From: a virus
Length of the DNA: 42,025 nt
Strand: one strand, 5' to 3'
IMG/VR virus record: IMGVR_UViG_3300044568_001534
Location: 1-42,025 of that record
Both the position numbers and the translations under genes were made by a program. The notes beneath the pieces are model-generated. The model saw only the letters and a program-made list of their open reading frames with translations. It was not told the origin of the DNA and made no database searches. Numbering within the stretch: the stretch's first letter is position 1; each line of letters opens with the position of its first letter. Positions 13,484 to 33,444 of this stretch are shown here, piece by piece.

Positions 13484-16400
13484 ATGGCAGAATTTAAAAT
13501 TGGCAGGTTCAAATTTGCATGGTCGGGCGCATGGCAAACTAATTATACCTATATCCGAGATATGGTTGTACAATTTAATGGTAAAACATATGTTTGTATA
13601 GTTCCACATACATCGGACGACTTTAACCAAGATATAGTACATTACACACCTGACGGAGAGTTTACTCCATATTGGTCGTTAATGATTAACGGTAATACCT
13701 GGGTAGGCCCATGGGAACCAACTACTAGTTACGGCACTGGTAACATTGTAATCTTTGGCGGGTATGTTTACTTGTGTAATACACCTCACACATCTAATAG
13801 TACTTTTAGTGATGACAATTGGGATATTTTTGGTCAGTTTACTGTATGGAAAGGCAACTGGGCGGTTAGTACATTATACGGTATTGGTGACATTGTTAAG
13901 TATGGCGGTATGAACTATATATGTTCTGTTACACATACCTCTGCATCAACTATTGATATTGGATTAGAAGCTAATATCGCATCATGGGCAATTTTTAATA
14001 AAAGTGTTCAATATAAAGGATCTTGGACAGCAGCATATAGATACAAATTAAATGACGTTGTTAAAGTTGGTTCTAATTTGTGGATTAGTACCGGTGGACA
14101 TAGTTCAGGTTCTTCATTTTCTGAAACTAATTGGACCTTATGGTTAGCTGGGTTAGAGTATAACTCTGTATGGGATAATGTAACTACGTATGATAAAAAT
14201 GATACTGTTAGATATGGTGGATACTTATATGTTAATAAAACATCAAACAACATTGGAAATGCACCATCGATTGAATCAGCTAATTGGACATTATTAACGA
14301 CTAGTTATGAAATTAAAGATGATTGGAGTACTGCTGTTTCCTACAAAATTGGTGCAGTTGTACGATATCATGGTCGCGTATATTCAGCTATTGCCAATAG
14401 CACTGCGCAAAATCCAGTTGCATTTGCAATATCAACAACATATACTGCTAGTGGAAGTTTAGGTACAACTCTTAAAGTTAATAGTTCTGCAGGTATTACA
14501 ATTGGCATGAACGTCATCGGTGCAGGGTTTACCCGTGGTCAGACTGTAGTTTCAATTATAGATAATGTTACTGTACAACTCAATGAAGAACCAGATGATG
14601 CAGTTGTTAATGCACAACCATTAACATTTAGTGGTGTTAATTACATTTTTTGGAAACTAATAATACCAGGTATTAATTGGACTAATAGATGGATTAGCAA
14701 TACCGAGTATGCAGTTGATGATCTAGTACGATGGAACCAAGGCGTATTCCGTTGTATTTCAAATCATAGTTCTACTATTTTAAATTCTCCAAATTTAGAT
14801 ACATCAAATGCATTATGGGTGTTGTATATACAAGATGATATTTACAACGGTACAAATAATCCTGGTGAATTTTTAACACGTAATAACGGAGTAAACGTTG
14901 CATTACCAATTGGTGCGTCTACAAATGTATTAAAAACTGTAGATTCTACACCAACGTGGTCAAACATCTTTACTACACCAAATGTATTTTATGTAGCAAC
15001 TAATGGCGAAGATTTACCAACTAGAGGTACTACATGGGACATTCCATGGAAAACCGTTGCATATGCATGCCAACAAGTAGGCCTAGGAACATTAAATCCA
15101 ACTGCAAGAGCATTATTATTAAGTAATGTTGAATTTTTAGTTACAGATACATATCAATGGATGTTATTTCAAAAATATAATAATTATGCTCCGTTTTCAT
15201 CATCTACTGTCATTGACCAAACTAAAACACTACGTGATGCTAGGTTTATTGTAGCCGCATTTATATATGATATTTCTCGAGGTGCAAATAGTCAAACAGT
15301 TGCAGCAACATTTACATTTTTTTCAAAAGAAAAAAATAATGCGTTTGTTACTGCTGGTGTTGCAGCTAATATGCCAATATTCATTGAAGCATTATCAAGA
15401 TTATTTACAGTAATTAATTTAGTAATGTCTAATACTGCGTTACCGACTAATAACAACTACCAATTAATTAATGCTGTTCCGGCACCGATTACTCAAACAA
15501 TTTTTCCAAATCAATTAATTGAAACGACTGCAGTTTCTAAATTAATAACATTGCAAACTATTATTTCTACTGCATTGTTAAATCAAGATACTTCATTAGT
15601 GCCGTCGCCTAACCAAGGGTTAGCAGCTACTATTTTTGTAAAATCTGGAACGTATTCTGAATTGTTACCAATTACTATATCTGCAAATGTTACACTAATG
15701 GGAGAAGAACTTAGGAGTACAGTTGTGCAACCTATAGATGCCATTAACACCTTGTGTACGCATACTGATGATGACCAGAATTTATTTACAGTTGGCACTA
15801 CAGTTCATATGGCAGATGGTACTCCTATACAGTTTGTATCAATAAATCCAGTAGGTGAATTAAGTACTATATTAGGCGGAGTAACTCCTGGGCAAACATA
15901 TTATGTAATTGGCAATTCTATTACAGAAACATCGTTTGCAGTAAGTTTAACAGCAGGCAGTGTTACTCGAGTTACACTTACAAGAAATACAGGATTTATG
16001 AATGTATATGGTGGCAACGCATTAAACGATATGTTTTATGTAAGAAATGGCACTAGTATACGAAATATGACACTTACCGGGTTGTTAGGAACGTTAACTG
16101 CTCAAAATCAATATTTAACACGTAGACCAACAGGCGGCTCGTATGTTAGTTTAGATCCCGGTGCAGGTCCTGATGATGTAAGTGCGTGGATTTTTAGAAA
16201 ATCGCCATATGTGCAAAATGTTACTACTTTTGGAACAGGTGTTACTGGTTTAAAAATTGATTCAACCTTGCACAATGGCGGAAATCGATCAGTAGTATGT
16301 AATGATTTTACACAAATTATTTCAGATGGTATTGGCATATGGTGTTATGGCGGTAATGCACTTGTCGAAGCAGTATCAGTGTTTTCGTATTATGGATACG

Positions 16401-19400
16401 CAGGATACATGGCAGAAAATGGTGGTAAAATCCGTGCAACAAATGGTAATAGTTCTTACGGTACTTATGGTGTTATATCAGAAGGTTATGATAATTCTGA
16501 ATCTCCAATAATTGGAACAGTTAATAATCGTGCTACTCAAGCAACTGCTAGTGTAGTAAGTTCATTAGGAGCAAATTCTAATATTTTAAAAATTCAATAC
16601 GATCATGCAGGCAGCAATTACAATAATCCTGTAACTAATCTTATTAAGAACAGCAATAACTTCCTTACCAATTGGAATATTGATAATTTTGTATCTATTG
16701 CGCAAAATACTATTTCACCTTCCGGATTATCAGATGGGTGGATGTTAACTACTACATCATCTGCATACGATGCAGGACAAGTAGCACAGCAAATTTCAAT
16801 TCCACCATCAGGAAAGGTGTTTACAAATATTAGCGGAACAAATATTAGCGGTTCGGGGATTGGTGCAACGTTTAATGTTACAGTTACTTCTGCAGAATAC
16901 GTAGTATCTGTAAATTTACCAGGTTCGGGCTATGTTGTAAATAACACTATTTCTATTCCTGGCAATTTAGTAGGCGGCAATGCTGGTACAAATGATATTA
17001 CCATAACTGTTCAATCATTAACAGGAACTGGTATTCAAACTGTAATGTTATCAGGAATTATACCATCTAATACAATAGTACCATATACTTTAAGTATATA
17101 TTGCAAAAAAGGTAATGCAGCAGCAATTTCACTATATGCATTTTTCTTAGGTTCATCTACAAAAGGTAGTCAACTTACATATAATTTTAATTCTAACACA
17201 GCAACTGTTAGTAGCGAAGATGGCGGCGGCGTAGTTCCTACACAATACTCAGTTATTCCAATAACAAATGGGTGGTATCGTATTTCATTTACTGTATATG
17301 ATATATTAGCACTAAACACAACTTTAGAATTTAGAATTTACCCAAGATCTCGAGCAGGTGGTACTACTGGATATACATATGTATACGGTGCGCAAGTTGA
17401 ACGAGCATCAACTGCGTCATTCTATTTAGAAACGTCAACTCAACGATATTGCAGTTATGCTAATTATAGAATTACTGGAGCAGGAACCGGAGTTGTAGTT
17501 GAAGGTAACGAAATTAGATCTAATGCAGTATTTCAAGCACGCATTTTTGATACCGGATTAGGGTTAGGAGGATCTGGTTATATAAATTCATCTAATAATG
17601 CCCAAGGTGGCACATCAACATATATTACATTAGCACAATCTGATGTTAACGTTGCTAATAACTATGTTGGTATGCGATTATTTGTTAATAGCGGTACGGG
17701 AGCCGGCCAATATGGTTACATTGCAGCATATGATACAGTAAGTAAAAATGCGTATGTATTAAAAGAATCTATTACACCGTTAGCTATTACAAATACTACA
17801 AGTGGAACTAATTTAATAACACTAAATTCGTCTGCAGATGTTACAACCTTATATGTAAATCAGCCAATTCAATTTATTCCGGCAACGTTTACTACATCAA
17901 TAACTTCTGTTGGACAAGATCAAATAACTGTAAGCGTAGCAATTGGTGGACTTATAAACACATTAACTGTTAGTTCTACTGCTAAATTACGAGTTGGTAT
18001 GGCTATAACGTTTACCGGTACTACATTTAGTAATATAACACCTAATTTCTCTTATTATATTGTTAGTATTATTGATACTGCAACAATTAATATTTCGACT
18101 TCAAATGGCGGTGTTGTATTAGGATTAGTTTCTGCAATTGGATTAATGACATTAAATTATCCAAATTCTACAAGTTATATAATTGGTCCAACAACCAACA
18201 TGGTTGTAAACTATGCAATCCAGTATACTGGTGCTACAATGGCCGGTATAAAAGTTGGTACCACATATTATATACAAGATGTTATTGATTCTACTAATTT
18301 TACAATGGCATCGTCATTAGTAAGTATAATTGCAAATGCTACTAGTAGTATTGATAATTCGTTAACAATTGATACATCAGTAAATTTAAAACCATTTACA
18401 CCAATTATATTTACAGGTACTACATTTGGCGGAATCGTTGTACATACAAAATATTATATACACAAAATTCCTACCGTAACTAGCATTACATTAACTAGCT
18501 CATTACTTTTAAGAACTGCAACTGCAACAACCGAAGTAAGCAATCTAATTACAGTTGATTCAACTGCTGGATTTGTAGTAGGCAATCCGATTATATTTGT
18601 TGGGCCAGCATTTGGCGGAATTACTAGTGAACAAATATATTATATTCAAGTAGTAAATGATGCAGTATCATTTACTATTTCAACTACTACATCCGGAGCA
18701 GCATATAATCTATCTAGTGCAACTGGCTCACTAATTGTTAAAACTGCTAATGGAACAGTGTCATTATCTACAGCAAGTGGTACAATGGTTGGCACAAGTA
18801 CATCGCCTAAATTAACATTATCGGCAGCATCTGGCAGCATGGTTGGCACATTTAGTGCTCCGTTATTTGGTGGAGTTACTTCAGGTACTATATATTATGT
18901 AAAAACAATTAATGTTGGATCACCCAACACTATTACAATAACTGCTACATCAAATGGATCAACTGCAGTGTCAGTAACTACTGCAGTAGGTCTAATGCAA
19001 ATTGGTGAAGTTGGTTGGGATCATATTAATGCAGGTACTCCGATAGTTACTAATTTTGATTCATCTAGTGTATACTTTATAGAACCTAAAATTACAAGTT
19101 CTTTACCTAATTTTGAAATTGCATTATCAGTTGCACCATTTGCTAGTGCAATAGGAATTGCGTATGGTAACAACACATTTATTGCAATTCAAACATCTAG
19201 TCAGACTGCATATGCATCTACTAATGGCGAAGTATGGACTAATTTAACTTTACCAGTAGTTGCAACATGGACTGATATTGCATATGGTAACACATATTGG
19301 GTAATTATTTCAAGTGCAGGCACAGGAAGTGGGTCAACTGTATTAGTATCTACAACTAATGGAGACTCATGGAAAACTGCATATTTACCATCAATTAGTA

Positions 19401-21055
19401 CGTGGTCTGATCTAGTATACGGTAATGGAACATTTGTTGCTATTACTAGTTCAACAGCAAATGTTGCATATTCTACAGATTTTGGATCAACATGGGTATC
19501 AGGATCAGGGTTATCAAGTACTACATGGTCAGATATTGCATATGGCGCTGGTATCTTTGTTGCAGTTGCAACAGGTGGTACTACTGCGGCGTATAGCACA
19601 ACCAATGGAGCAACATGGACAGTAGTAGTGTTACCAGTATCCGGAAATTGGTCATCTATTGCGTTTGGTAATGGTCGATTTGTTATAGTGTCGAGTACGT
19701 CTGCAACACCATTATACAGTTTTAATGGGTCAACTTGGTATGCATCACCTTACGCAATTGCATCATCAATTCTTAGATACGGTGACGGTGTTTTTGTTGC
19801 AGTAAGAGAATCATTATCTAGTTACACAAGCGAAAGTGGTATTATATGGTCATCAAAATACCCGTTACCAACTGCTGGAATACGTACCGATATGGCATTT
19901 GGCTATAATAGTGCTAACGCTGGGAAATTTATATGTATTTCGGCTAATTCATATGTTAGCATAATTTCTGCAGGGTGCTGCATGCAAGCACGGGCTATTA
20001 CAAAAGATGGTGCAATTTCCAAATTAAGTATATGGGAGCCAGGATCAAATTATATAAATGCTCCAACAATCGTAGTTGCTGATCCGAATAATACAAATGA
20101 AGTATCAATAACATTACGTACTGGTTCAGGAGTACTAGCTAGCCCAACATTTGTTAATCGAGGTTCTGGTTATAATACATCATCTACGTTAATATCAGTA
20201 GTTGGTAACGGATATGCTGATGATTATCAACTTGGTATATCGTTATATTGTACTAATTTAACATCATTACCTGCACCTGGCGATAATTTAACAATTAATG
20301 GAAACTCACAAACGTACAAAGTGGCATCATCGACTATATTAAACGGCACAACAGCTCCAAATCTTAGTGCATTGTTAACAGTGTCACCTGGATTTACAAT
20401 AACTACTTCTCCTAACCATGGAGCATCGTTTATAATTCGAGAAAAATATAGTCAAGTACGATTAACAAATCATGACTTTTTAAATATAGGGTACGGCAAT
20501 ACATACCAATCGAGTTACCCAGGATTACCAAGTGAAACCGGATTAATGCCGCAAAACCAAACAGTTGAAACAAATAATGGTAGGGTGTTTTATTCGTCAA
20601 CTGACCAAGATGGTAACTTTAAAGTTGGTGAATTGTTTGCAGTAGAGCAAGCAACTGGTATTGTTACATTAAGTGCATCGCAATTTGGATTGCAAGGATT
20701 ATCACAATTGAAAATAGGTGGTGTTGCTGTTGGTGCATCTGCGGTAGTAATTGAACAATTTAGTACTGATCCGACATTCTTAGCTAATTCAAATTCAATT
20801 CTTCCTACGCAACGAGCAATTAAAAGTTATCTAACAGCAAGATTGTCACAAGGTGGATCAAATACATTTACTGGACAATTAATAGCAGGTACTGTAGTTG
20901 TCGGTGGCGCTAATAAAATTGGAAGTACACTCGGTGAAGGAAATAGCGGATGGCTAGTTAAAATGACAAATAAAGTAAACATACAAGGCCAATTTGGCGG
21001 TGTGGATGGAGATTTAGCAGCACTAAGTTTCTTTATAAAATCATGGAAACGTTAA
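13484..21055 (+). CDS. Giant modular tail fibre/adhesin, 2523 aa (pair B, copy 1)
   Basis: Domain order by residue: N-terminus MAEFKIGRFKFAW. About 11-450: seven CBM5/12-like repeats (W....Y...D.V...G..Y.C...HTS...W). About 505-1020: pectate-lyase-like beta-helix entry (NVFYVATNGEDLPTRGTTWD), one LRDARFIVAAFIYDISRG helical unit at 584, then IFVKSGTYSELLPITI and the core RATNGNSSYGTYGVISEG. About 1052-1319: a phage carbohydrate-binding-like jelly roll (FLTNWNIDNF, NGWYRISFTV, YVYGAQVE) split by an 80-aa module at 1112-1191. About 1490-1830: tandem 'FTGT.FGGI...YYI' units. About 1885-2165: a 7-bladed propeller of 'W.DIAYGNG.FVAV...STNG..W' repeats. C-terminus: DQDGNFKVGELFAVEQATG and FSTDPTFLANSNSILPTQRA. 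It is a virion receptor-binding protein; no catalytic residue is assigned. Confidence 0.88.
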   Translation: MAEFKIGRFKFAWSGAWQTNYTYIRDMVVQFNGKTYVCIVPHTSDDFNQDIVHYTPDGEFTPYWSLMINGNTWVGPWEPTTSYGTGNIVIFGGYVYLCNTPHTSNSTFSDDNWDIFGQFTVWKGNWAVSTLYGIGDIVKYGGMNYICSVTHTSASTIDIGLEANIASWAIFNKSVQYKGSWTAAYRYKLNDVVKVGSNLWISTGGHSSGSSFSETNWTLWLAGLEYNSVWDNVTTYDKNDTVRYGGYLYVNKTSNNIGNAPSIESANWTLLTTSYEIKDDWSTAVSYKIGAVVRYHGRVYSAIANSTAQNPVAFAISTTYTASGSLGTTLKVNSSAGITIGMNVIGAGFTRGQTVVSIIDNVTVQLNEEPDDAVVNAQPLTFSGVNYIFWKLIIPGINWTNRWISNTEYAVDDLVRWNQGVFRCISNHSSTILNSPNLDTSNALWVLYIQDDIYNGTNNPGEFLTRNNGVNVALPIGASTNVLKTVDSTPTWSNIFTTPNVFYVATNGEDLPTRGTTWDIPWKTVAYACQQVGLGTLNPTARALLLSNVEFLVTDTYQWMLFQKYNNYAPFSSSTVIDQTKTLRDARFIVAAFIYDISRGANSQTVAATFTFFSKEKNNAFVTAGVAANMPIFIEALSRLFTVINLVMSNTALPTNNNYQLINAVPAPITQTIFPNQLIETTAVSKLITLQTIISTALLNQDTSLVPSPNQGLAATIFVKSGTYSELLPITISANVTLMGEELRSTVVQPIDAINTLCTHTDDDQNLFTVGTTVHMADGTPIQFVSINPVGELSTILGGVTPGQTYYVIGNSITETSFAVSLTAGSVTRVTLTRNTGFMNVYGGNALNDMFYVRNGTSIRNMTLTGLLGTLTAQNQYLTRRPTGGSYVSLDPGAGPDDVSAWIFRKSPYVQNVTTFGTGVTGLKIDSTLHNGGNRSVVCNDFTQIISDGIGIWCYGGNALVEAVSVFSYYGYAGYMAENGGKIRATNGNSSYGTYGVISEGYDNSESPIIGTVNNRATQATASVVSSLGANSNILKIQYDHAGSNYNNPVTNLIKNSNNFLTNWNIDNFVSIAQNTISPSGLSDGWMLTTTSSAYDAGQVAQQISIPPSGKVFTNISGTNISGSGIGATFNVTVTSAEYVVSVNLPGSGYVVNNTISIPGNLVGGNAGTNDITITVQSLTGTGIQTVMLSGIIPSNTIVPYTLSIYCKKGNAAAISLYAFFLGSSTKGSQLTYNFNSNTATVSSEDGGGVVPTQYSVIPITNGWYRISFTVYDILALNTTLEFRIYPRSRAGGTTGYTYVYGAQVERASTASFYLETSTQRYCSYANYRITGAGTGVVVEGNEIRSNAVFQARIFDTGLGLGGSGYINSSNNAQGGTSTYITLAQSDVNVANNYVGMRLFVNSGTGAGQYGYIAAYDTVSKNAYVLKESITPLAITNTTSGTNLITLNSSADVTTLYVNQPIQFIPATFTTSITSVGQDQITVSVAIGGLINTLTVSSTAKLRVGMAITFTGTTFSNITPNFSYYIVSIIDTATINISTSNGGVVLGLVSAIGLMTLNYPNSTSYIIGPTTNMVVNYAIQYTGATMAGIKVGTTYYIQDVIDSTNFTMASSLVSIIANATSSIDNSLTIDTSVNLKPFTPIIFTGTTFGGIVVHTKYYIHKIPTVTSITLTSSLLLRTATATTEVSNLITVDSTAGFVVGNPIIFVGPAFGGITSEQIYYIQVVNDAVSFTISTTTSGAAYNLSSATGSLIVKTANGTVSLSTASGTMVGTSTSPKLTLSAASGSMVGTFSAPLFGGVTSGTIYYVKTINVGSPNTITITATSNGSTAVSVTTAVGLMQIGEVGWDHINAGTPIVTNFDSSSVYFIEPKITSSLPNFEIALSVAPFASAIGIAYGNNTFIAIQTSSQTAYASTNGEVWTNLTLPVVATWTDIAYGNTYWVIISSAGTGSGSTVLVSTTNGDSWKTAYLPSISTWSDLVYGNGTFVAITSSTANVAYSTDFGSTWVSGSGLSSTTWSDIAYGAGIFVAVATGGTTAAYSTTNGATWTVVVLPVSGNWSSIAFGNGRFVIVSSTSATPLYSFNGSTWYASPYAIASSILRYGDGVFVAVRESLSSYTSESGIIWSSKYPLPTAGIRTDMAFGYNSANAGKFICISANSYVSIISAGCCMQARAITKDGAISKLSIWEPGSNYINAPTIVVADPNNTNEVSITLRTGSGVLASPTFVNRGSGYNTSSTLISVVGNGYADDYQLGISLYCTNLTSLPAPGDNLTINGNSQTYKVASSTILNGTTAPNLSALLTVSPGFTITTSPNHGASFIIREKYSQVRLTNHDFLNIGYGNTYQSSYPGLPSETGLMPQNQTVETNNGRVFYSSTDQDGNFKVGELFAVEQATGIVTLSASQFGLQGLSQLKIGGVAVGASAVVIEQFSTDPTFLANSNSILPTQRAIKSYLTARLSQGGSNTFTGQLIAGTVVVGGANKIGSTLGEGNSGWLVKMTNKVNIQGQFGGVDGDLAALSFFIKSWKR
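13514..14838 (+). repeat. Seven CBM5/12-like repeats in the 2523-aa fibre
   Basis: Each unit is about 50-65 aa: W..tt.Y..gDiV.ygG..Y.C...HTS..(..)W. Examples are GNWAVSTLYGIGDIVKYGG and GSWTAAYRYKLNDVVKVGS. The repeats resemble chitin/cellulose-binding modules and probably bind polysaccharide. Confidence 0.78.
19151..19990 (+). repeat. Seven-bladed BNR/kelch-like propeller in the 2523-aa fibre
   Basis: Seven approximately 40-aa units of the type TWSDIAYGAGIFVAVATGG, then AYSTTNGATW, are visible. The S.NG.(T/S)W part resembles the sialidase Asp-box. Seven units fit a complete propeller. Confidence 0.7.
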
Positions 21056-21070
21056 ACGTGAGTAATGCGG

Positions 21071-21079
21071 GATAAATAT
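21071..21079 (+). promoter_or_regulatory. Candidate T4-type late promoter GATAAATAT
   Basis: GATAAATAT lies between the two giant fibre genes, 29 bases before the next ATG. A TTGGAGT ribosome site is at 21096-21102. Confidence 0.58.
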
Positions 21080-21107
21080 ATGATAATATACATAGTTGGA
21101 GTATTAA

Positions 21108-24100
21108 ATGGCTGAATTTAAGTTAGGTAGAATTAGATTTGTATGGCAAGGTCCTTGGACTACCGGAACATCTTACATAGTTGACGACGTGGTAAACAGG
21201 GGTGGTAAAAGTTATATTTGTGTAGTAAATCATACGGCTGCGGCTAGCTTTACTACTGATATTTCTACAATACCGAGTAAATGGAATTTAGTTGCAGATG
21301 GCACAAGTTGGAGGGGCGATTGGCTTCCATCTACAGCGTATGAAGCAGGCGATCAAGTAAAAAATGGCGGTATTGTATATATTTGTTCAACAGGTCACAC
21401 TTCTGCAACTTATGTAACTCCTACATATTTAGGGTTAGAATATGATTTTTCAAAATGGACTGTATTTGCATCTTCATTTAATTGGACAGGCGAATGGGCA
21501 CCTAATAGTAGATACAAATTAAATGATTTAATAAAATATAGTGGTATTACATATATTTGTAATTTAAATCATATTAGTAGTGCCAGTACAACACTTGGAT
21601 TAGAACCTGATTTATCAAAATGGTCTGTGTTTAGTGATGGTATTTCATATGTTGGAATGTGGACTACATCTACAAGATATAAATTAAATGATGTAGTAAA
21701 ATATGGTGCAGATTTATGGATCTGTACATTGTTTCATACATCATCTACTTTTATTGATGATTCAAGCAATTGGAGTATATTTGTTGCAGGTATTCAATTT
21801 GAAAACTCATGGAACAATGGAACAACGTATCAAGTAGGTGACATTGTTACTTATGGTGGTTATACGTATGTTGCAAAAACAGTTCATGAAAACAAAGCAC
21901 CGATAGCTAATCCTAACGATTGGGATGTATTTACTACTGGTTTTAATTTTAGAAGTGATTGGGATAGTACAACTGCATATAAGATCGGTGATGTAGTAAG
22001 ATTGCATGGATATACATATGTAGCACTATTTGATAGCACTAATGATTTACCTCCTAGTATAGTATGGAGTAAATTAAATTCTGGTATTTCATGGACAAAC
22101 AATGCACAAACGTATACATCAGTATCTGGTACTAACGTAACAGGTTCTGGTACCGGGGCACAATTTAACATTGTACGTTCTAAAACTGTATATACAATAA
22201 CTGTAACTTCAGGTTATGCAGGTACTAGTTATGTTACTGGTAATACTATTAAGATATTAGGTTCAGCAGTAGGCGGTCTATCACCAGTAAACGATATTCT
22301 TATTACAGTTACTGCTACATCTGGTGAAATAACAGATATTACATGGACTGGTAAATCAGTAACTTGGACATTGGGTATTTCTTATTCTCTAGGTGATGTT
22401 GTAACGTTTGGTGCAAACAGTTACATTTGTTCACTTACTCATACTGCAGTACCTAGTAATAGACCGGATAACGACACCTCTGGCACAAATTGGAATGCAT
22501 TAGCATTAGGATCTGATGTTAACGCATTGACAACTCAAGGCGATATGTTATATTATGGCCAAACTGGTCCTACTAGATTGCCAGTCGGTATTGAAGGCCA
22601 AATTCTGCGTGTTACTAATGGTTATCCAACATGGTCAAATTATGGATTAATTAATAATTTAGTGTATGTAGGGCCATTAGGATCTGATGTTGCTGCTCCT
22701 CAGGCAGGATTAACTATTGATAAACCGTGGAAATCAGTTAGGTTTGCATGTCATCAGATTGAACATGGATATCAAAATCCAAATGCTAAATCATTAATAC
22801 TAAGAAACAAGCAATTTATTATTAAAGAAGTTAATAATTTTTTATCGTATACATATAAAGTTTCAATTACTGGTACATCAGGCGGCGCGTTAACCTCACC
22901 TAATACAGCAATGCTATCTGTAAATATGCCAATTCGTTTTGCAAATACAACTGGTAACGTGTCAATATCTACGACGTATTATGTTAAACAGATTCTTAGT
23001 TCAACATTATTTACTATTTCGACAGCAGTTGGTGGAACTGCATTTACTGCAAGTGGTTCGGGAACAAATACCGGTACATTTTATTACGATCAAACAAAAG
23101 CTGAACGTGATGCAGGTATTATCGTTGAAGCAGTTGCACATGATTTAAGTAGATTGGGTACACAAAAAACTACTGCTGCTGCATTAGCATATTTTAATAC
23201 CGCCGGTACAACTTATATTACTACAACTACTGGATATGAAGTATTACAATTTACCAGTGCTGTAAATTATTTGTCAACATTATTAGGAAATGTATTAACC
23301 AATACTATTCCAACTTTTAATTATCAAATATTAAATGGTGCAAGCGTTACTGCTGCACAAATTACTGATTTAACAATTACTGCAGAAACTGGAGTTGTTA
23401 GTACTGCACAGAATTTAGTTTCAATTGTTACTACTGGTCTTACTTCAGGATCTGCAGCTGCAGTACCAACTGCAATTGTTCCAAATACAACAATATCAGT
23501 TAAGACTGGAACATATACTGAAATTTTACCAATCGTGCTACCTGCAAATACTGCAATCGTAGGCGATGAATTACGTAATACTGTAATACAACCTGCACTT
23601 GCTAATCCTAATATAGCAACATCTGCATTAAAAACACAATTAGCACTAACACGGTTTAAAACAGTAATTCCAAATTTAATTGCAAATACTACAATTACAC
23701 CTACTAGTGGAAATACTACTGCACAAGTTACAACATTACCTGCAGGTAGCACAGGGTCGTTGACTGCAATTAGTAATTTAAAAACTAGTTTTGATATTGT
23801 ATACGGCTTAGTAGCAAACGGTTTGGGTGGAGAATCAAGTATTGTCCGTCCATTGCCGACTGGCTATAATACCACATTAATAAATGTTGCGTATAGCGCA
23901 AGTGGAAATTTAACAGGTAACACTACCGGTTACGGAGATGCAATTACACAAATTCAACAAAACTATGCGTTTATTGCAGCTGAGATTTCAGCAGTTATCG
24001 TTGGTCAAGGAACTGTTACATCTGCATTTGATGCAAAAGGATATCGAGATACTTCTTATATTTTAGATTCATTAATTTATGATTTAACATATGGTGGTAA

Positions 24101-27100
24101 TTCTCAAAGTAACATTGCAGGTAGTTCGTATTATTCGTTGTATGTATTAAGCATTTTATCAGTTGACAAAACACCATTTGTTACTGCAATTACTCGATTA
24201 AAAACTATCATTTCGCCAATCATACAACAAACAGTACTTTCTACTGCACAATTTATTATTACACAAAATGTATCAGGAACTGCAGGTTCTGTAAATGCTG
24301 GAAAATTTGCAGAAGAAAGATTACAAAATATTATTAATTGGATTAATAACGGAACTAGTGATACAGGAGTTGCACCATATACTGGTTGGACTAGTTCTGA
24401 ATTACAAACTGCTTATAATGCGTTAATTAGCCAATCTAGCAATATCCAATCAGATGCAGTATCTTGGTGCCAGAAATATTTTCAATCTATACCATTTAGT
24501 ACTACATTGGCATATCGTGATGCTGGTTTAATAATTAATAATTTAGCATATGATATGATTTTTGGTACAAACTTTAATGCAATCCAAACAGGTCGTTTAT
24601 ATAATAGAGCAACTACACGTGAAATTGCATTAAGATCTACTAATGAATTAAAATTAACACTTGGTTCAATTAACTTTATGTATTATAAAGCTAAACAAAT
24701 TGCTGCAAGTGGTGCATCTGTTCAACTACAAACAACAATTGATGATATTAGTAATTTCTTAACAGGTGGTGCGTCACCTCCAAACATTACAATGCCACAA
24801 CCGGCATTACCTGCATCATCATATACTGGTGTACCAGGTACTGTAATATCAGGAGGTGGTGATGGATTCGCTGCATTTACTATAAACAGAATTACTAATA
24901 CCAATGGATATTATGCATACACGGTTACACCAACATCTGCTGGGGCAAATTATACTACTTCTAGTAAAATAAAAATATTAGGCACTAGTATTGGTGGCGC
25001 AACTCCGGTAAATGATATTGTTCTTAATGTAACACGAGTTACAACAGGCGGCGTAGTTGCGGCTACGTATTCTGATGCAATTGCAGCAGCTGGTTTAATT
25101 GAATCAAATAGACAATTTGTATTAGCTGAAATTATTGCATATATTGATACAAACTATTCATCAATTACTACCGATTCTACATATTCTGTTACAAAAACAC
25201 AACGAGATGCTAGCTATATATTAGATGCAATTAAATTTGATTTAATGTATGGAGGTAATTGGGCGTCTCAGAACGCAGGAATGTCATACTATTCGGCACT
25301 ATATGGTACACAAATAACATCAGGGTTTACTACTGCATTTGTTAATACTGTTGGGTATATTAGTACACTATTACAATTGATTGTAATAGGTAACACCGTT
25401 AGTAGTCCGCTGCAAGTTGTTATACCGCAAGTTGTTCCGCCTATTACACAAATAGTAGGAGCACTAAAAGATGCTACTCAAATTGCTGCATTAACTACGA
25501 TAATTACTAACTTTATCACTAATGGTTTAACTAACGGTGCTCCTGTAGTTACAGTAACTACTATTGCAACACTTGATACATTTACATCAAACGGACACGG
25601 TTTAAATAATGGCGACATTGTTATACCACAAGCAACTTCAAACGGATTAGTTTCAACTGTTATTGGATATGGTACACAATATTTTGTAGTTTCGTCTAAT
25701 ACAAATACATTTAAATTATCAGCAAGTTACAATGGCGCTGCATTAACTACATTTACAAATGGTACTGGATTATCGATTAAACTTCAAAAAATTGTTATGC
25801 CAAGTTTAACATGGGTTAACTCGACTGGTATTGCTGCGTATACTGCAGTTACTTCTCTAATATCAACATATCAAACATCAGTTGTTACATATTTAACTAC
25901 TAATTTTTCAGCGTTGCAATACCTTTCATTATACGTATCGCGCGATGTGAATAGTGTAGTAATTGCAACACTGTTAGATATGCTGTTAGGTAGTAATTAT
26001 GCAGGAATACACACAGGCCGTGCATATAACAGACTACAAGATTACAAAGTACAAGGATATGAAAAAACTGCAACGATTGCATCATTAAATTATTTAGAAA
26101 CATTACTTTCTAGTACATTATCTAGTTCAGTTTATTCGTCTCAGTTGTCTAGAATAGATACTTCAATTTATTTAATTATTAAAATGTTAGAATTTGGTTC
26201 AGGAATTTTACCTGAAATCAACGGAACTGTAACATATAATAATAATTTAGGTATAATTAAAGGTTCAGAGATTTTACGTGCAAATATTCCATTTCTTACA
26301 GCAGAAGCAGTTGCGTTGTATAAAACTAGATTTGGTGGTAATGTTACTACAACTACTACCGGGTCTAATGAAATTACAACAAGTGCAGCTCATAATTTTG
26401 TAGTTAACGATCCGGTAGTATTTTCCGGTGTAAGTACAAGTGGACTAGTTGTTAACACTACCTACTATGTATTAACTGTTACGTCGCCTACTACATTTAC
26501 TGTTACTGCAGTTGCAGGGTATTTAAACAGTAATCAAGGTACAGTATATCCTCCAGTATCTGTAACTAGCTCATCTCCTACGGGATTTACAGTTGCATAC
26601 TCATTTAGTCCTAATAAAGTTATTACTGATCTTACATATTTGTTAAATGGTATTGTATATGATTTACAATATACAGGTAACTATAAAAGTTTAAGATATG
26701 TCGAATTGTTTAAAAATGAAATTAATGGATCACAAGCAAGCAACATGCTTTTAGTACGGAATGGTACTGGTTTAAGAAATTTAACAACTAGTGGTTTAGT
26801 TGGAACATTAACTAATCCAAATGCATACGGCACTAAACGTCCAACTGCAGGTGCATATGTGTCACTTGATCCAGGGTTTGGACCAAATGATTCAAATAGC
26901 TGGATCATAACTAGATCACCATATGTACAAAACGTTACTACGTTTGGTACAGGATGCGTAGGTTTAAAAATTGATGGCGCGTTACATAATGGTGGTAATA
27001 GATCTGTAGTTGCTAATGATTATACACAAGTGTTATCAGATGGTATTGGTGTATGGTGTACAGGTAATAATTCACTTACTGAATTAGTATCAGTGTTCTC

Positions 27101-30100
27101 ATATTACGGGTATTCTGGTTATTTGGCAGAATTAGGTGGACGGATTCGTGCAACAAATGGTAATAGTTCATACGGTACTTGGGGTGTTATTGCCGAAGGA
27201 ACTGATGTAACTGAATTGCCAATCACTTGTATTTTAGATAATCATTCACAACAAGCACAAATTTCCAATGTATTTACAGATGGAACAAATAAAGTGTTAC
27301 GTCTTGAATATAGTAATGCTGGTAGCAATTATACAAATACTGTAATGACAATTAGTGGTTCTGGATATAATATTGCAGCAACAGCTGACGAATTCCGTGA
27401 TGCTGCTGTATTTGAAACTAGAATTATTGATTTAAATGATGGTAACGGGTATGGTGGTACTAATTATGGTACTGCAATCAACGCTGCTCAAAATGGTACA
27501 TCTACCTATATTACTATTGCAGCTACTGATATTGCGTTGAGCACTGCATATACAGGTATGAGAATACAACTTACAGCAGGTTCAGGTGTTGGCCAATATG
27601 GTAATATTTTATCATATAATAATGGTACAAAAATTGCATTAGTATATAAAGATAGCTTTACTAATTTAACAGTAACCGCAACTGCAATTACAAATAATTT
27701 GTTAACTGTTGCTAGCACTGCTAAGATGTATGTAGGAATGCCAATTTATTTAAACACTACTGGTAATGGGTTAACTGCTAATACGTTATATTATGTTATT
27801 GCTGCAAACTTTTCAAGTACACAATTTGCAGTAAGCACTGTATTAGGTGGATCTGCAGTTACTATTACAGCAACTGGATCAGGATTAACCGTTACATTAT
27901 ATGCTGCAGGATGGGATCATGTAGTTGCAGGAACTGCTATTGTATCTACGTTAGATTTAACTACTCAATATAGTATTGAGCCAAGAATTAGTTATACTGA
28001 TCCGGGGTATGCTGCAACGGCAAGAACCTTATCAACAACCGGTACTTGGGGTGCTGCAACTTACGGTAATAGTCGTTATATTTCTATTGCTACTGCTACT
28101 AGTAATTTAACACAGTATTCAAATGATGGCAAAACATGGGCTGCAGGAGGAACATTACCGTCATCTGCTAACTGGGCTAATGTAGTATATGGCGGCGGAC
28201 AAGGTGCTACTGCGTATGCAGTTATTGGTGGTCTAGGCGGTTCTGGCGCAATTCTTACAGCAGTATTAGGTAGTGCAAACAGTGTTGGTGCACCGGGTGC
28301 AGATCAAGTATTAAGCGTAACTATTGTTAATGGCGGTGTTGGGTATTACACAGCGCCAACTATTGTCTTTACTCCAGTAAGTGGTGGAACTGGTGCAATT
28401 GCAACTTGCGCAGTATTAAATGGTTCAATTACTAGTGTAACAATTATAAGCAACGGTACTGCATATGCAGTAGCTCCTACTATATCTGCTGCAACTGATA
28501 GAGTTACAAAACTTGTAGTTACTGCATGGGGTACTGGTTATACATCAGCACCGACTGTAACATTATCAGGTGGCGGCTCTAGTAATCAAGCAACTGGTAC
28601 TGCAGTGTTAACTAATAATGGTGTTAGTAGTATTACAATAGGAAATAATGGCGGAAGCGGTTATACATCTACTCCGACTGTATCTTTTGTTGATCCTACT
28701 GCAAAATATGTTACTATTGCGTCTAATGTAGCAGCTGCAGCGTTTTTATCTGCATCATCGACTGCAACTACTAACTGGACTGCTAGTACAACAGTTCCTC
28801 AAGCGTATGCAGATATTGCATATGGTAATGGGGTGTACGTTGCAGTTGGAGGCACATCGGGTGCAGCATCAACCACTGATGCAGTTACATGGGTTTCGCG
28901 TACAATTCCAACATTAGGCGCAGGTACATATTCTGCTGTTGCATATGGTAATGGATACTTTGTTGCAATTTCGACAGGAAACTTAGTTACTGCAATTTCA
29001 ACAAATGGCTTATCGTGGAGTGCAGGCGGTAGTTTACTATCGAATACAACATGGACAAGTGTTACATACGGTAATGGTAGATTTGTTGCAGTTGCAAGCG
29101 GCGCAAGAGTTACTGCATTTAGTATTGATAACGGTACTACTTGGACAACTTCGGCCAGCTTACCACCTGGTGGTAATGCTTGGTCAACTATTAGATATGG
29201 ACAAGGTGTGTTCTTTGTAATTGCACAATCATCTACATCTGCAGCTACTAGCCCAGACGGTATTAACTGGACTTTAAGAACAATGCCAGGTACAAGTACA
29301 AATTGGAAAGGTTTAGCATTTGGTAGCATTTCAAGAAATCCGTTATGGGTTGCAACGTCAGCTACTTCAGGTACAACTGCAGCTTCGATTCGTACTGGTG
29401 CGCAAACACTAGGCAGAATGAAAGCATTATCAGGCATATTAAGCGAAATACGAATAATTGAACCTGGTTCAGGTTATCCAAAGGGTACAGTAACTGCATC
29501 AACAATAACTACAAACTTAATTACTGTTGATAATACAGAGAACTTAATAGATAGGCAACCTGTAGTATTTACAGAGACTGGTGCTAGTGGATTAACTGCA
29601 GGTGTTACATACTATGTAATTGGATCAACTATTACAAGTACACAATTTAAAGTTAGTGCAACTGCAGGTAGTGCAACTGCGATAACATTAATTAATTCTA
29701 CGTTAACTGGTACATATAGAGCAGGACCTATATTAACACAAACTGATCCTAATAAAGTAATTACTGCAGCGTTAACTGTTAGGACAGGCGACGGTGCATT
29801 AGGTAATCCATCGTTTAGTAATAGAGGTACTAGCAACACAACAGCAACTGCAATTACATTAGGTGACGGATATGCTGATTTATATCAACCGAGCACATAT
29901 ATTACAGTTAACAATTTGTTTTCAGTACCACAAGCTGGATCAAATATATCGTTCGCGTCAATACCTAACACATGGTATAAATTAGTATCTGTTGGTAATG
30001 TATTAGGAAACGCTGGAGAATACAGTGCAACGTTCCAGATTAGTCCAGGACTTAGTGTATTACTTGCACCGGCATACGGTGATACGATTACAACAACGAA

Positions 30101-30674
30101 TAAATATAGTCAAGTACGGTTAACAGGACATGATTTCTTGTATATCGGAACAGGTAACCAATCAACTACTAACTTCCCATATGTAATTCCAACAACTGCA
30201 GATATTGCAAAACAAGAATTAGCAAGTGGCGGTGGTCGTGTGTTCTTTACGAGTACAGATCAAGATGGTAACTTTAATGTAGGTAACTTGTTTGGCGTGC
30301 AACAATCAACAGGTACTGCAACATTAAATGCTAGTGCATTTAATTTATCAGGACTACAAAGTTTGCAATTAGGTTCAGTATCATTAGGAATTGGAAGTGC
30401 AGTAATTACGCAGTTCTCAACAGATCCGTATTTTACTGCAAATAGTGATAGTATTTTACCTACACAACGAGCAATTAAATCATATATTACATCACAAATT
30501 GGTGGCGGTTTAAGTTCATTAAACGTAAATACATTAACAGCTGGTGTTGTGTATATTGCGAATAATACAATATCGACTACTAATGGTGGTCAAATAAACG
30601 TAACAGCTAAGATGAATTTCACAGGCGGCATTGACGGCGCGCCAGTTGCACTTTCATTCTTTATGCAACGATAA
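21108..30674 (+). CDS. Giant modular tail fibre/adhesin, 3188 aa (pair B, copy 2)
   Basis: This is a paralogue of the 2523-aa protein with the same frame of domains. N-terminus: MAEFKLGRIRFVWQGPW. About 11-470: seven CBM5/12-like repeats, with an 80-aa module wedged between repeats 6 and 7. About 520-890: beta-helix entry (LVYVGPLGSDVAAPQAGLTI, SVKTGTYTEILPIVLP). About 666-1860: six helical 'RD..YIL..I.YDL.YGGN' units, only one of which exists in copy 1. About 1885-2030: beta-helix core (RATNGNSSYGTWGVIAEG). About 2310-2770: a 7-bladed propeller interrupted in blade 2 by a 'GSGYTS.PTV' insert (about 2375-2545). C-terminus: DQDGNFNVGNLFGVQQSTG, FSTDPYFTANSDSILPTQRA. At 9.6 kb it is one of the largest fibre genes I would expect in a T4-like phage. 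It probably serves as a long fibre subunit. Confidence 0.88.
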   Translation: MAEFKLGRIRFVWQGPWTTGTSYIVDDVVNRGGKSYICVVNHTAAASFTTDISTIPSKWNLVADGTSWRGDWLPSTAYEAGDQVKNGGIVYICSTGHTSATYVTPTYLGLEYDFSKWTVFASSFNWTGEWAPNSRYKLNDLIKYSGITYICNLNHISSASTTLGLEPDLSKWSVFSDGISYVGMWTTSTRYKLNDVVKYGADLWICTLFHTSSTFIDDSSNWSIFVAGIQFENSWNNGTTYQVGDIVTYGGYTYVAKTVHENKAPIANPNDWDVFTTGFNFRSDWDSTTAYKIGDVVRLHGYTYVALFDSTNDLPPSIVWSKLNSGISWTNNAQTYTSVSGTNVTGSGTGAQFNIVRSKTVYTITVTSGYAGTSYVTGNTIKILGSAVGGLSPVNDILITVTATSGEITDITWTGKSVTWTLGISYSLGDVVTFGANSYICSLTHTAVPSNRPDNDTSGTNWNALALGSDVNALTTQGDMLYYGQTGPTRLPVGIEGQILRVTNGYPTWSNYGLINNLVYVGPLGSDVAAPQAGLTIDKPWKSVRFACHQIEHGYQNPNAKSLILRNKQFIIKEVNNFLSYTYKVSITGTSGGALTSPNTAMLSVNMPIRFANTTGNVSISTTYYVKQILSSTLFTISTAVGGTAFTASGSGTNTGTFYYDQTKAERDAGIIVEAVAHDLSRLGTQKTTAAALAYFNTAGTTYITTTTGYEVLQFTSAVNYLSTLLGNVLTNTIPTFNYQILNGASVTAAQITDLTITAETGVVSTAQNLVSIVTTGLTSGSAAAVPTAIVPNTTISVKTGTYTEILPIVLPANTAIVGDELRNTVIQPALANPNIATSALKTQLALTRFKTVIPNLIANTTITPTSGNTTAQVTTLPAGSTGSLTAISNLKTSFDIVYGLVANGLGGESSIVRPLPTGYNTTLINVAYSASGNLTGNTTGYGDAITQIQQNYAFIAAEISAVIVGQGTVTSAFDAKGYRDTSYILDSLIYDLTYGGNSQSNIAGSSYYSLYVLSILSVDKTPFVTAITRLKTIISPIIQQTVLSTAQFIITQNVSGTAGSVNAGKFAEERLQNIINWINNGTSDTGVAPYTGWTSSELQTAYNALISQSSNIQSDAVSWCQKYFQSIPFSTTLAYRDAGLIINNLAYDMIFGTNFNAIQTGRLYNRATTREIALRSTNELKLTLGSINFMYYKAKQIAASGASVQLQTTIDDISNFLTGGASPPNITMPQPALPASSYTGVPGTVISGGGDGFAAFTINRITNTNGYYAYTVTPTSAGANYTTSSKIKILGTSIGGATPVNDIVLNVTRVTTGGVVAATYSDAIAAAGLIESNRQFVLAEIIAYIDTNYSSITTDSTYSVTKTQRDASYILDAIKFDLMYGGNWASQNAGMSYYSALYGTQITSGFTTAFVNTVGYISTLLQLIVIGNTVSSPLQVVIPQVVPPITQIVGALKDATQIAALTTIITNFITNGLTNGAPVVTVTTIATLDTFTSNGHGLNNGDIVIPQATSNGLVSTVIGYGTQYFVVSSNTNTFKLSASYNGAALTTFTNGTGLSIKLQKIVMPSLTWVNSTGIAAYTAVTSLISTYQTSVVTYLTTNFSALQYLSLYVSRDVNSVVIATLLDMLLGSNYAGIHTGRAYNRLQDYKVQGYEKTATIASLNYLETLLSSTLSSSVYSSQLSRIDTSIYLIIKMLEFGSGILPEINGTVTYNNNLGIIKGSEILRANIPFLTAEAVALYKTRFGGNVTTTTTGSNEITTSAAHNFVVNDPVVFSGVSTSGLVVNTTYYVLTVTSPTTFTVTAVAGYLNSNQGTVYPPVSVTSSSPTGFTVAYSFSPNKVITDLTYLLNGIVYDLQYTGNYKSLRYVELFKNEINGSQASNMLLVRNGTGLRNLTTSGLVGTLTNPNAYGTKRPTAGAYVSLDPGFGPNDSNSWIITRSPYVQNVTTFGTGCVGLKIDGALHNGGNRSVVANDYTQVLSDGIGVWCTGNNSLTELVSVFSYYGYSGYLAELGGRIRATNGNSSYGTWGVIAEGTDVTELPITCILDNHSQQAQISNVFTDGTNKVLRLEYSNAGSNYTNTVMTISGSGYNIAATADEFRDAAVFETRIIDLNDGNGYGGTNYGTAINAAQNGTSTYITIAATDIALSTAYTGMRIQLTAGSGVGQYGNILSYNNGTKIALVYKDSFTNLTVTATAITNNLLTVASTAKMYVGMPIYLNTTGNGLTANTLYYVIAANFSSTQFAVSTVLGGSAVTITATGSGLTVTLYAAGWDHVVAGTAIVSTLDLTTQYSIEPRISYTDPGYAATARTLSTTGTWGAATYGNSRYISIATATSNLTQYSNDGKTWAAGGTLPSSANWANVVYGGGQGATAYAVIGGLGGSGAILTAVLGSANSVGAPGADQVLSVTIVNGGVGYYTAPTIVFTPVSGGTGAIATCAVLNGSITSVTIISNGTAYAVAPTISAATDRVTKLVVTAWGTGYTSAPTVTLSGGGSSNQATGTAVLTNNGVSSITIGNNGGSGYTSTPTVSFVDPTAKYVTIASNVAAAAFLSASSTATTNWTASTTVPQAYADIAYGNGVYVAVGGTSGAASTTDAVTWVSRTIPTLGAGTYSAVAYGNGYFVAISTGNLVTAISTNGLSWSAGGSLLSNTTWTSVTYGNGRFVAVASGARVTAFSIDNGTTWTTSASLPPGGNAWSTIRYGQGVFFVIAQSSTSAATSPDGINWTLRTMPGTSTNWKGLAFGSISRNPLWVATSATSGTTAASIRTGAQTLGRMKALSGILSEIRIIEPGSGYPKGTVTASTITTNLITVDNTENLIDRQPVVFTETGASGLTAGVTYYVIGSTITSTQFKVSATAGSATAITLINSTLTGTYRAGPILTQTDPNKVITAALTVRTGDGALGNPSFSNRGTSNTTATAITLGDGYADLYQPSTYITVNNLFSVPQAGSNISFASIPNTWYKLVSVGNVLGNAGEYSATFQISPGLSVLLAPAYGDTITTTNKYSQVRLTGHDFLYIGTGNQSTTNFPYVIPTTADIAKQELASGGGRVFFTSTDQDGNFNVGNLFGVQQSTGTATLNASAFNLSGLQSLQLGSVSLGIGSAVITQFSTDPYFTANSDSILPTQRAIKSYITSQIGGGLSSLNVNTLTAGVVYIANNTISTTNGGQINVTAKMNFTGGIDGAPVALSFFMQR
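21138..22521 (+). repeat. Seven CBM5/12-like repeats in the 3188-aa fibre
   Basis: Units include GDWLPSTAYEAGDQVKNGG, GMWTTSTRYKLNDVVKYGA and VTWTLGISYSLGDVVTFGA. Repeats 6 and 7 are separated by an unrelated 80-residue module (about 22110-22360). Confidence 0.78.
23103..26710 (+). repeat. Six dispersed alpha-helical RD-YIL-YDL repeats
   Basis: The unit is R-D-x-x-Y-I-L-x-x-I-x-Y-D-L-x-Y-G-G-N, seen at residues 667, 980, 1137, 1366, 1612 and 1841 (the last as TDLTYLLNGIVYDLQYTGN). These are amphipathic helices in an otherwise beta-rich protein, separated by variable insertions. Copy 1 of the pair has only one unit, at its residue 584. Confidence 0.7.
28041..29410 (+). repeat. Seven-bladed propeller with an insertion in blade 2 (3188-aa fibre)
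   Basis: Blades such as AYADIAYGNGVYVAVGG and TTWTSVTYGNGRFVAVASG are visible. Bases 28219-28800 interrupt blade 2 with three 'G.GY..(A/T)PT(V/I)' units and then return to the propeller. Confidence 0.68.
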
Positions 30675-32364: not shown

Positions 32365-33444
32365 ATGACAATTGACGTTTTAACATTAAATGCGTATTTA
32401 GAAGAAAATCAAACATTATTAAATTCAGGCGAGTACACAGCTGCATACTCAGCTGCGTATGCAACTGCATACTCAAGTGGTTGTATAGCTGCAGCCAGTT
32501 CGTTCCTTCAATCGCAAATTAATCAAACACCGTGTAATGTATCATTATGGTGTTCTATTCCGATGATGACCGGTGGCGTGACGGGAACCGTATTAGTTTG
32601 CGATACAAGTGGCTATTTTCGATGTGGTGCATCGTGTTCGTGGACAGTACCAAACGGGATAACCTGCGCACAATTTCAAATGTGGGGTGCAGGCGGCGGC
32701 AGCAATGCCGGATGCTGTTGTGGTGGCGCAAACAATGGCGGAACAGGTGCGTATGTATCTGTTATTATGCCAGTTACTGCTGGTACTGTATATACATTAT
32801 GTGCAGGGTGTGCGACTTGCTGTTACCCAACACCCGGCAGTAGCTATTGCGGCCGCGGATGTGCATCCTATGTAACCGGTACTGGAATGTGTAATGTATG
32901 TGCCGAAGGTGGCGCCAATTTTCACTGGCAATCAATATTAGATCAAGGGTGTTACGGATCAGCTGGTGGCGGTTATTGGTGTACTATTGAATACTATCCA
33001 AATAGTGGTACTACTGCCGGCCCATGTGTTTGTGGTAGTAATAATTATTGCAGTAACTCATGCGCTACATGCGGCGAAGTCGTAGTTCATAGAAACTCAC
33101 TAGTTAATTTTTATGGATGTGCAACAAACGGAAAACTTATGGGCATTCCGGGACTACATGGTGGGTTATGTCTGGACACTAACCAATATGGACATTTTAC
33201 GAATCCGCCAGTAATTAATACAACGCATACCGGGGCATTTGACAGCGCGAGCAATTGCGGCTGTCGAGTATGTTTTACTAGTGAAAATAATTTAGGAGGC
33301 TGTCTATGCAGTGGCGGAATAAATGGTACGTCAGTTCAACAATTTCCCGGAGCAGGCGGTTTTGCGCATCATGCAATGGGCGGAAATACTACCGGCTGTG
33401 GCGATGCAGGGCGTATGGGTATGGTACGTGTTACTTACAGATAA
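32365..33444 (+). CDS. Cysteine-rich, glycine-rich adhesin-like protein, 359 aa (pair C, copy 1)
   Basis: I count 33 cysteines in 359 residues. Residues 1-45 are an Ala/Tyr-rich, probably helical tether (YTAAYSAAYATAYSS). The core from about residue 75 (VCDTSGYFRCGASCSWTVP, then FQMWGAGGG) matches the general pattern 'WTVP.GVT..Q..MWGAGGGG' of glycine-rich phage fibre-tip domains. Here, however, CCC, C..C and CC clusters are interspersed (AGCCCGG, CAGCATCC). The end is GCGDAGRMGMVRVTYR. No signal peptide is seen, so it would be made in the reducing cytoplasm. It probably forms a receptor-binding tip; the cysteines could make disulfides after lysis or bind metal. AAGGATAACAACAA precedes the ATG. 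Confidence 0.82.
   Translation: MTIDVLTLNAYLEENQTLLNSGEYTAAYSAAYATAYSSGCIAAASSFLQSQINQTPCNVSLWCSIPMMTGGVTGTVLVCDTSGYFRCGASCSWTVPNGITCAQFQMWGAGGGSNAGCCCGGANNGGTGAYVSVIMPVTAGTVYTLCAGCATCCYPTPGSSYCGRGCASYVTGTGMCNVCAEGGANFHWQSILDQGCYGSAGGGYWCTIEYYPNSGTTAGPCVCGSNNYCSNSCATCGEVVVHRNSLVNFYGCATNGKLMGIPGLHGGLCLDTNQYGHFTNPPVINTTHTGAFDSASNCGCRVCFTSENNLGGCLCSGGINGTSVQQFPGAGGFAHHAMGGNTTGCGDAGRMGMVRVTYR

Follow-up and report, generated by a model that had tools for sequence, protein, structure and literature searches.

Predicted seven-bladed propellers as a cassette in two tandem giant tail fibres of a probable jumbo T4-like myovirus

Beta-propellers have been described in several phage tail proteins. PMC4901313 presents the receptor-binding protein (RBP) of Staphylococcus phage phi11, which carries its propeller in mid-chain as do the fibres reported here, but has five blades and a helical stem and belongs to a Gram-positive siphophage. 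The same text presents PhiKZ gp131C (PDB 4GBF), a seven-bladed propeller at the baseplate periphery of a myophage, which is speculated to bind a receptor and which, unlike ours, is a C-terminal domain. A further seven-bladed propeller makes up the SU10 nozzle core, with nozzle domains located between blades 2 and 3 (PMC9509320). Fibres of similar layout are found in Kyanoviridae and in a Pelagibacter phage: S-CAM1 SXBG_00229, P-SSM2 PSSM2_301 and Mosig_00063, all tblastn relatives of our first fibre (P0001), show the same order of CBM5/12-like array, core and C-terminal module, the latter with RLTGHDF...STDQ or STDE as in our fibres. They differ in having 5, 5 and 6 CBM repeats, respectively, instead of seven, in the lack of a propeller and of RDA..YDL repeats, and in their length of 1090-1326 aa versus 2523 and 3188 aa. 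Two further seven-bladed proteins serve for comparison, Ycf48, which is non-enzymatic, and virginiamycin B lyase.

The original prediction for this locus called a complete BNR-like propeller inside a phage fibre of this size unusual. The phi11, PhiKZ and SU10 propellers (PMC4901313, PMC9509320) speak against this, and the design is common in uncultured phages. The propeller cassette of the giant fibres is a variation on the known propeller-fibre design and not a new kind of system. In the literature searched, mostly at the level of titles and abstracts, no description of this particular fibre architecture was found.

The window, i.e. the whole stretch of DNA analysed here, is a virus record of 42,025 bases. 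Its first open reading frame (ORF) encodes a T4-type major head protein (phrog_138). The closest head protein, at 73.7% identity, is that of the 469-kb Sinorhizobium phage Phosso; Vibrio phage 2.275.O, with a genome of 349 kb, follows at 70.6%, and Pseudomonas phages in the range of 285-288 kb come next, e.g., PA5oct at 68%. Since the nearest capsid-protein relatives are thus phages of 285-469 kb, and the relatives of the fibres were found on contigs of up to 364 kb, the window probably represents part of the genome of a jumbo T4-like myovirus. The fibre genes are neighboured by genes for baseplate-wedge-like and tail proteins, a Nol-like carbamoyltransferase and a Nudix hydrolase. The baseplate-wedge-like protein at 8711-12730 carries an inserted lectin-like Laminin_G_3 domain (E 1.6e-19), perhaps another plug-in binding domain. 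Downstream of the fibres, two paralogous Cys- and Gly-rich proteins are encoded at 32365-33444 and 34116-35192 (33 Cys in 359 aa and 31 Cys in 358 aa; phrog_35878, whose function is not annotated), together with the carbamoyltransferase and other possible modification genes at 36284-38077, 35250-36242 and 38111-38734. A carbamoyltransferase is likewise located downstream of the fibre genes in P-SSM2 and S-CAM1.

The two fibre genes and their most conserved parts are located as follows:

13484..21055, + strand: giant tail fibre, first tandem copy (P0001, 2523 aa); open frame, phrog_9851 E 8.4e-135, copy-1 clade
21108..30674, + strand: giant tail fibre, second tandem copy (P0002, 3188 aa); open frame, phrog_9851 E 3.1e-150, copy-2 clade
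15995..16636, + strand: most conserved core segment of P0001 (residues 838-1051), the putative beta-helix of the original prediction
26709..27347, + strand: conserved core segment of P0002, which served as query for relatives
20447..21052, + strand: C-terminal module of P0001 (YSQVRL...DQDGNF...), among the most conserved fibre parts and with the highest mean identity in ortholog pairs
30105..30671, + strand: C-terminal module of P0002, from sequence comparison with P0001

Both ORFs are open and complete, both match the phrog_9851 (tail fiber protein) profile significantly, and their lengths bear out the predicted pair of related giant proteins differing by 665 aa. They are 62% identical in the core, 42% in residues 1-314 and 45% in the C-terminal module (P0001 residues 2190-2521). 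From these alignments, P0001 and P0002 are judged to be tandem paralogous tail fibres that were anciently duplicated. They share a layout of CBM5/12-like array, a middle part whose length largely depends on the number of RDA..YDL..GGN repeats, core, propeller in a fixed slot, and C-terminal module. When the whole fibres are compared with Pfam, the CBM repeats are the sole named part above cut-off; the core, part of the insertion in blade 2 of P0002 and the C-terminal module match no Pfam family at E<=1.

A relative of the core is encoded in 418 of 430 pattern-matched IMG/VR stretches. The relatives considered below stem from the best 80 of these 418 (71 distinct loci) and three further loci. 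They comprise 144 ORFs with matches, the two of the window included, of which 28 run off the locus end and 116 are complete; the latter still contain the window's own two and same-contig duplicates (L009 = L012; L011 = L027). Clustering at 90% identity leaves 77 non-redundant proteins.

The N-terminal arrays of both fibres hold seven repeats each:

13517..14836, + strand: seven CBM5/12-like repeats of P0001 (residues 12-451); Pfam PF02839 E 1.9e-28 and repeat HMM
14432-14635, + strand: insertion after repeat 6 of the P0001 array; coordinates by sequence
21141..22502, + strand: seven CBM5/12-like repeats of P0002 (residues 12-465); Pfam E 2.5e-35 and repeat HMM
22098-22367, + strand: insertion between repeats 6 and 7 of the P0002 array; coordinates by sequence

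The repeat HMM was trained on the window's own CBM repeats and finds seven per N-terminus; an eighth match in P0001 and P0002 falls on a propeller blade and reaches merely 2.7 or 7.0 bits. Pfam CBM_5_12 (PF02839) scores 98.6 bits in P0001 and 120.7 bits in P0002, against a cut-off of 26.2, over 6 and 7 stretches. The predicted repeat type and number are therefore in good agreement with both models. The further step, that a conserved number implies function, does not hold among relatives: at a threshold of 12 bits, 26 of the 77 non-redundant proteins carry seven repeats and 51 carry eight, and the S-CAM1, P-SSM2 and Mosig numbers lie lower still, which rules out strict conservation of seven. 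At 30 bits, where weak repeats drop out, the distribution is seven in 35, eight in 41 and four in one of the 77. One ORF among the complete relatives holds nine. Repeats 1-6 of P0001 best match repeats 1-6 of P0002, respectively, while repeat 7 best matches repeat 3 and not repeat 7. As the repeats are mostly positional orthologues, the equal number in both fibres goes back to descent from one array; seven is inherited. Two relatives, L029:764-6445 and L032:629-6445, are 92% identical and differ by 45 residues, approximately one repeat, within the array, which by its sequence is a recent repeat gain or loss.

These arrays might themselves be the main binders, attaching to glycans in a multivalent fashion and leaving the propeller an accessory. 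The Pfam score, which identifies true CBM_5_12 repeats, the C-terminal Trp that a loose pattern locates in 627 of the 674 unique repeats, and the presence of an array in all 77 non-redundant relatives at 12 bits all suit this idea. Tail fibres, however, usually attach to the virion by their N-terminus, which is where the array is located, and it is kept across distant phages, largely with its repeat order. Repeat 5 of P0002 also weakly matches All3326 in 7b5i (14.6 bits, E 0.11), the structure of an Anabaena contractile injection system. Overall, we rate arrays as main binders improbable. A structural role on the baseplate side or in the stalk appears at least as likely as multivalent polysaccharide binding, and the array would more probably serve near the virion, in the stalk or for docking, than as the principal receptor binder.

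The middle part accounts for most of the length difference:

15224..15409, + strand: single RDA..YDL..GGN repeat of P0001 (residues 581-642); own HMM, 43.0 bits
23097..26717, + strand: six RDA..YDL..GGN repeats of P0002 (residues 664-1870); own HMM, 20.7-69.2 bits

Approximately 60 residues of this repeat are recognisable, and the stretch has no Pfam match even at E<=10. Over the 116 complete relatives, its copy number correlates with protein length (r = 0.88). CBM number, with a negative correlation (r = -0.62), does not explain the length, and the number of blade matches (r = 0.42) does so only weakly. In proteins longer than 3,300 aa, 4 to 12 copies are present, and above four only even numbers occur (6, 8, 10, and 12 in the longest proteins). 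The gap of 665 residues between P0001 and P0002 thus appears to stem mostly from this repeat, with one versus six copies. Cyanophage proteins named "short tail fiber" or tail protein contain related stretches as well (46 records).

The propellers lie between the core and the C-terminal module:

19106..19972, + strand: seven-bladed propeller cassette of P0001 (residues 1875-2163, model range 33-321); AlphaFold2 (AF2) pLDDT 86.5, VIA Z 30.3 to 2z2o_D
19880-19963, + strand: degenerate seventh blade of the P0001 propeller; the other six found by the blade HMM
28002..29402, + strand: seven-bladed propeller of P0002 (residues 2299-2765, model range 33-499); AF2 pLDDT 72.9, VIA Z 32.5 to 2z2o_D
28191..28694, + strand: insertion of ~168 residues within blade 2 of the P0002 propeller (residues 2362-2529), from the alignment

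A blade HMM detects six clear blades in P0001 and five in P0002. The missing ones were found by eye: blade 7 is degenerate in both proteins, and in P0002 the insertion divides blade 2. The AlphaFold2 model of the P0001 propeller, built from an alignment of 27 rows, has a pLDDT of 86.5 and a pTM of 0.86, and 274 of 295 residues align with virginiamycin B lyase 2z2o_D (Z 30.3, rmsd 2.5), which is the top match among solved structures. The P0002 model is of moderate confidence (pLDDT 72.9, pTM 0.68; five models at 61.8-72.9) and aligns with the same chain over 281 of 295 residues (Z 32.5, rmsd 2.2) and with the 7-bladed designer protein 7big_A at Z 27.3. Since both models match a seven-bladed chain almost from end to end, closed seven-bladed rings are predicted for P0001 and P0002, as had been proposed from the sequence. 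The outcome that would have refuted the original prediction, a different blade number or an open ring, thus did not occur. A count of five or six, as the HMM gives it, is set aside by the models, the missing blades being degenerate or split. The model-based count covers the two proteins of the window; for relatives with 2-4 HMM blade matches, the cassette length fits seven.

In sequence, the best solved relative of the propeller profile in the PDB is Ycf48 (E 9.6e-10), followed by chains of BNR glycosyl hydrolase, GH74 (xyloglucan hydrolase, E 1.3e-4) and sialidase (exo-sialidase, E 3.5e-4), and Foldseek likewise ranks Ycf48 first (E 2.7e-10). The predicted BNR-like propeller thus stands in both fibres, as a closed, seven-bladed ring of Ycf48/BNR sequence type. 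Ycf48 differs in being a free-standing photosystem II assembly factor, whereas the domain of the window lies inside a phage tail-fibre gene. No curated family in Pfam, NCBIfam or PHROGs covers the P0001 propeller; the BNR repeat (PF02012) is below cut-off in the P0002 fragment (7.7 versus 27 bits) and is not listed for P0001, and EPTP exceeds its cut-off in the P0002 fragment (23.3 versus 21 bits) and in the relative L041 (31.9). Among the 50 matches listed in each of two fold searches, 4GBF is absent, and no sialidases are among the fold-search matches listed. A Foldseek search of a viral library (BFVD) with the P0001 model returned matching predicted propellers in two long proteins of uncultured Caudovirales, A0A6J7WDX3 (E 1.3e-32) and A0A6J7WHK8 (E 4.7e-19). 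Both entries carry automatic names, the latter for a ChiC_BD domain, and the comparison covers their propellers.

The propeller occupies a slot bounded by a GWDH...IEPR motif and a PGSGY motif. Among 49 non-identical slots found by pattern, the segment from IEPR to PGSGY measures 40-45 aa if empty (10 sequences) and 321-353 aa with a compact propeller (18 sequences), and 20 more exceed 400 aa; the slot of 78 aa in L033, a protein that has six blade matches, rests on a false landmark and was not scored as empty. The propeller is present in 56 of the 77 non-redundant proteins and absent from 21, in which the frame is otherwise continuous across the slot. This absence bears on the idea that the propeller is a structural hub in the fibre or baseplate, carrying inserted domains, and not a receptor binder. 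Such a hub would fit the position inside the chain and the large within-blade insertions of P0002-type propellers, and the SU10 nozzle core (PMC9509320) is an example. A part that is dispensable to the frame, and that evolves faster than it, makes a hub doubtful, although we accord it some weight.

For the history of the cassette, 30 non-redundant tandem pairs are informative: 11 carry the propeller in both copies, 14 in the first copy alone and four in the second alone, and one pair lacks it altogether. At least one copy is thus present in 29 of 30 pairs; as independence alone would leave approximately 2.5 of 30 without a propeller, the single pair observed is no proof that one is needed. A scaffold tree, with the propeller left out, was built from 43 proteins, which remained after dereplication of those where the core motif (located in 66) and the C-terminal motif could both be identified. 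It has several open forks and places copies 1 and 2 in separate groups, with at least 6 changes of propeller state. The tree of 34 primary-slot propellers, also with several open forks and with truncated ORFs assigned to copy 1 by position, contains one change of copy label, which speaks against swapping of propellers between the tandem genes. Since both trees separate the copies, the most economical history is vertical descent of an old cassette, which would have been present at or soon after the duplication and then lost several times.

A second slot is indicated by comparison with the relative L045:

20207..20323, + strand: hairpin region of P0001, corresponding to a second slot that is empty here (comparison with L045 copy 1); a probable second propeller is found there in two other lineages

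In eight copy-1 proteins (L045-L048, L050, L053, L058 and L075; e.g., L045:172-6240 and L053:1514-7201), a second blade cluster sits in this hairpin, which follows the propeller slot and precedes the C-terminal YSQVRL module. The second cluster of L045 has seven blades by eye, and a truncated ORF of L020 shows two clusters as well. Judged from their blade motifs, the two-cluster fibres probably hold two propellers.

In a tblastn search of 50,697 phage records, the P0001 propeller found no match at E<=0.01. The propeller of a canonical relative matches four other records of this set and 18 bacterial genome loci from unrelated groups (spirochaetes, Bacteroidota, Opitutia, Paenibacillus, actinobacteria and others). 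The domain type is thus so widespread that no donor can be named. In Synechococcus phage B23 (L086:6000-6800), a long open frame on the + strand contains several blade motifs at a place where the annotation has two hypothetical genes, gp328 and gp329, on the other strand. This frame is possibly a free-standing propeller gene overlooked by annotation.

With respect to function, sequence divergence points to the propeller. Across 19 ortholog pairs, which share members, mean identity is 82% in the CBM array, 83% in the middle, 76% in the propeller and 88% in the C-terminal module, and the propeller is the least conserved of these four modules in 14 of the 19 pairs, but not in the other five. Within the blades (12 pairs), divergence peaks in the B-C loop (0.42) and is lowest in the A-B turn and the B strand (0.23); strand A, which lines the channel, is strongly divergent as well (0.38). 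Among 27 aligned propellers (effective number 24.3), no Asp, Glu, His or Tyr is conserved outside the structural turns. Conserved charged residues are confined to the Asp-box and YG turns and their flanks, with the exception of two basic positions (0.70 and 0.68).

The original prediction held that the propeller may cleave sugars and named a conserved acidic or tyrosine active site as the feature to look for; no such site is seen in these 27 sequences. The active site of sialidases consists of a conserved arginine triad, an acid and a tyrosine, and no such conserved set occurs among the 27 propellers either. The title of PDB entry 2z2p names an inactive virginiamycin B lyase mutant, H270A, and the propeller alignment contains no conserved His that could correspond to this catalytic residue. 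A depolymerase or lyase that cuts host surface polysaccharide could still be argued from the structural match to virginiamycin B lyase, from the profile matches to GH74 and exo-sialidase given above, and from the phage set of DepoScope, in which n-bladed propellers are reported as the second commonest polysaccharide-degrading fold (119 of 984 hits). In view of the missing catalytic residues and of a best solved sequence relative, Ycf48, that is no enzyme, we consider a cutting enzyme hardly probable. The faster divergence, the pattern of the B-C loop and the confined charges together favour a ligand-binding, non-enzymatic domain that the fibre displays, in line with proposals for the phi11 RBP and PhiKZ gp131C (PMC4901313). 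For the propeller, the sequence evidence hence favours binding over cleavage, and contact with the host cell is probably made by this domain. The domain is interior to the chain and followed by a conserved module, and its divergence could reflect relaxed constraint instead of selection for binding.

Jointly, the observations seem best explained by duplicated T4-like fibres with a plug-in propeller that binds a host ligand without cutting it and thereby confers two partly independent specificities, a reading to which we give somewhat better than an even chance. The core and the C-terminal module would form the structural frame of the fibre. As the ring closes, the ends of the propeller would meet, so that the domain hangs off this frame as a plug-in, and one of its faces would bind a ligand of the host surface, either glycan or protein. 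With two fibres, either or both of which carry the propeller, the phage would have two binding specificities that are partly independent of each other.

More tentatively, and with rather less than an even chance, the slot may be a general socket for receptor domains, with the RDA..YDL repeat setting the reach of the fibre, so that reach and specificity are tuned separately in the two fibres. If this is true, a ring could be kept, lost or joined by a ring in a second socket without disturbing the frame, and the RDA..YDL number, which shifts mostly in pairs, would set the reach. Together, these data provide a testable map for a widespread but poorly annotated fibre family, in which the variable presence of the cassette, the additional slot and the repeat that sets fibre length would serve as natural experiments on host range versus reach.
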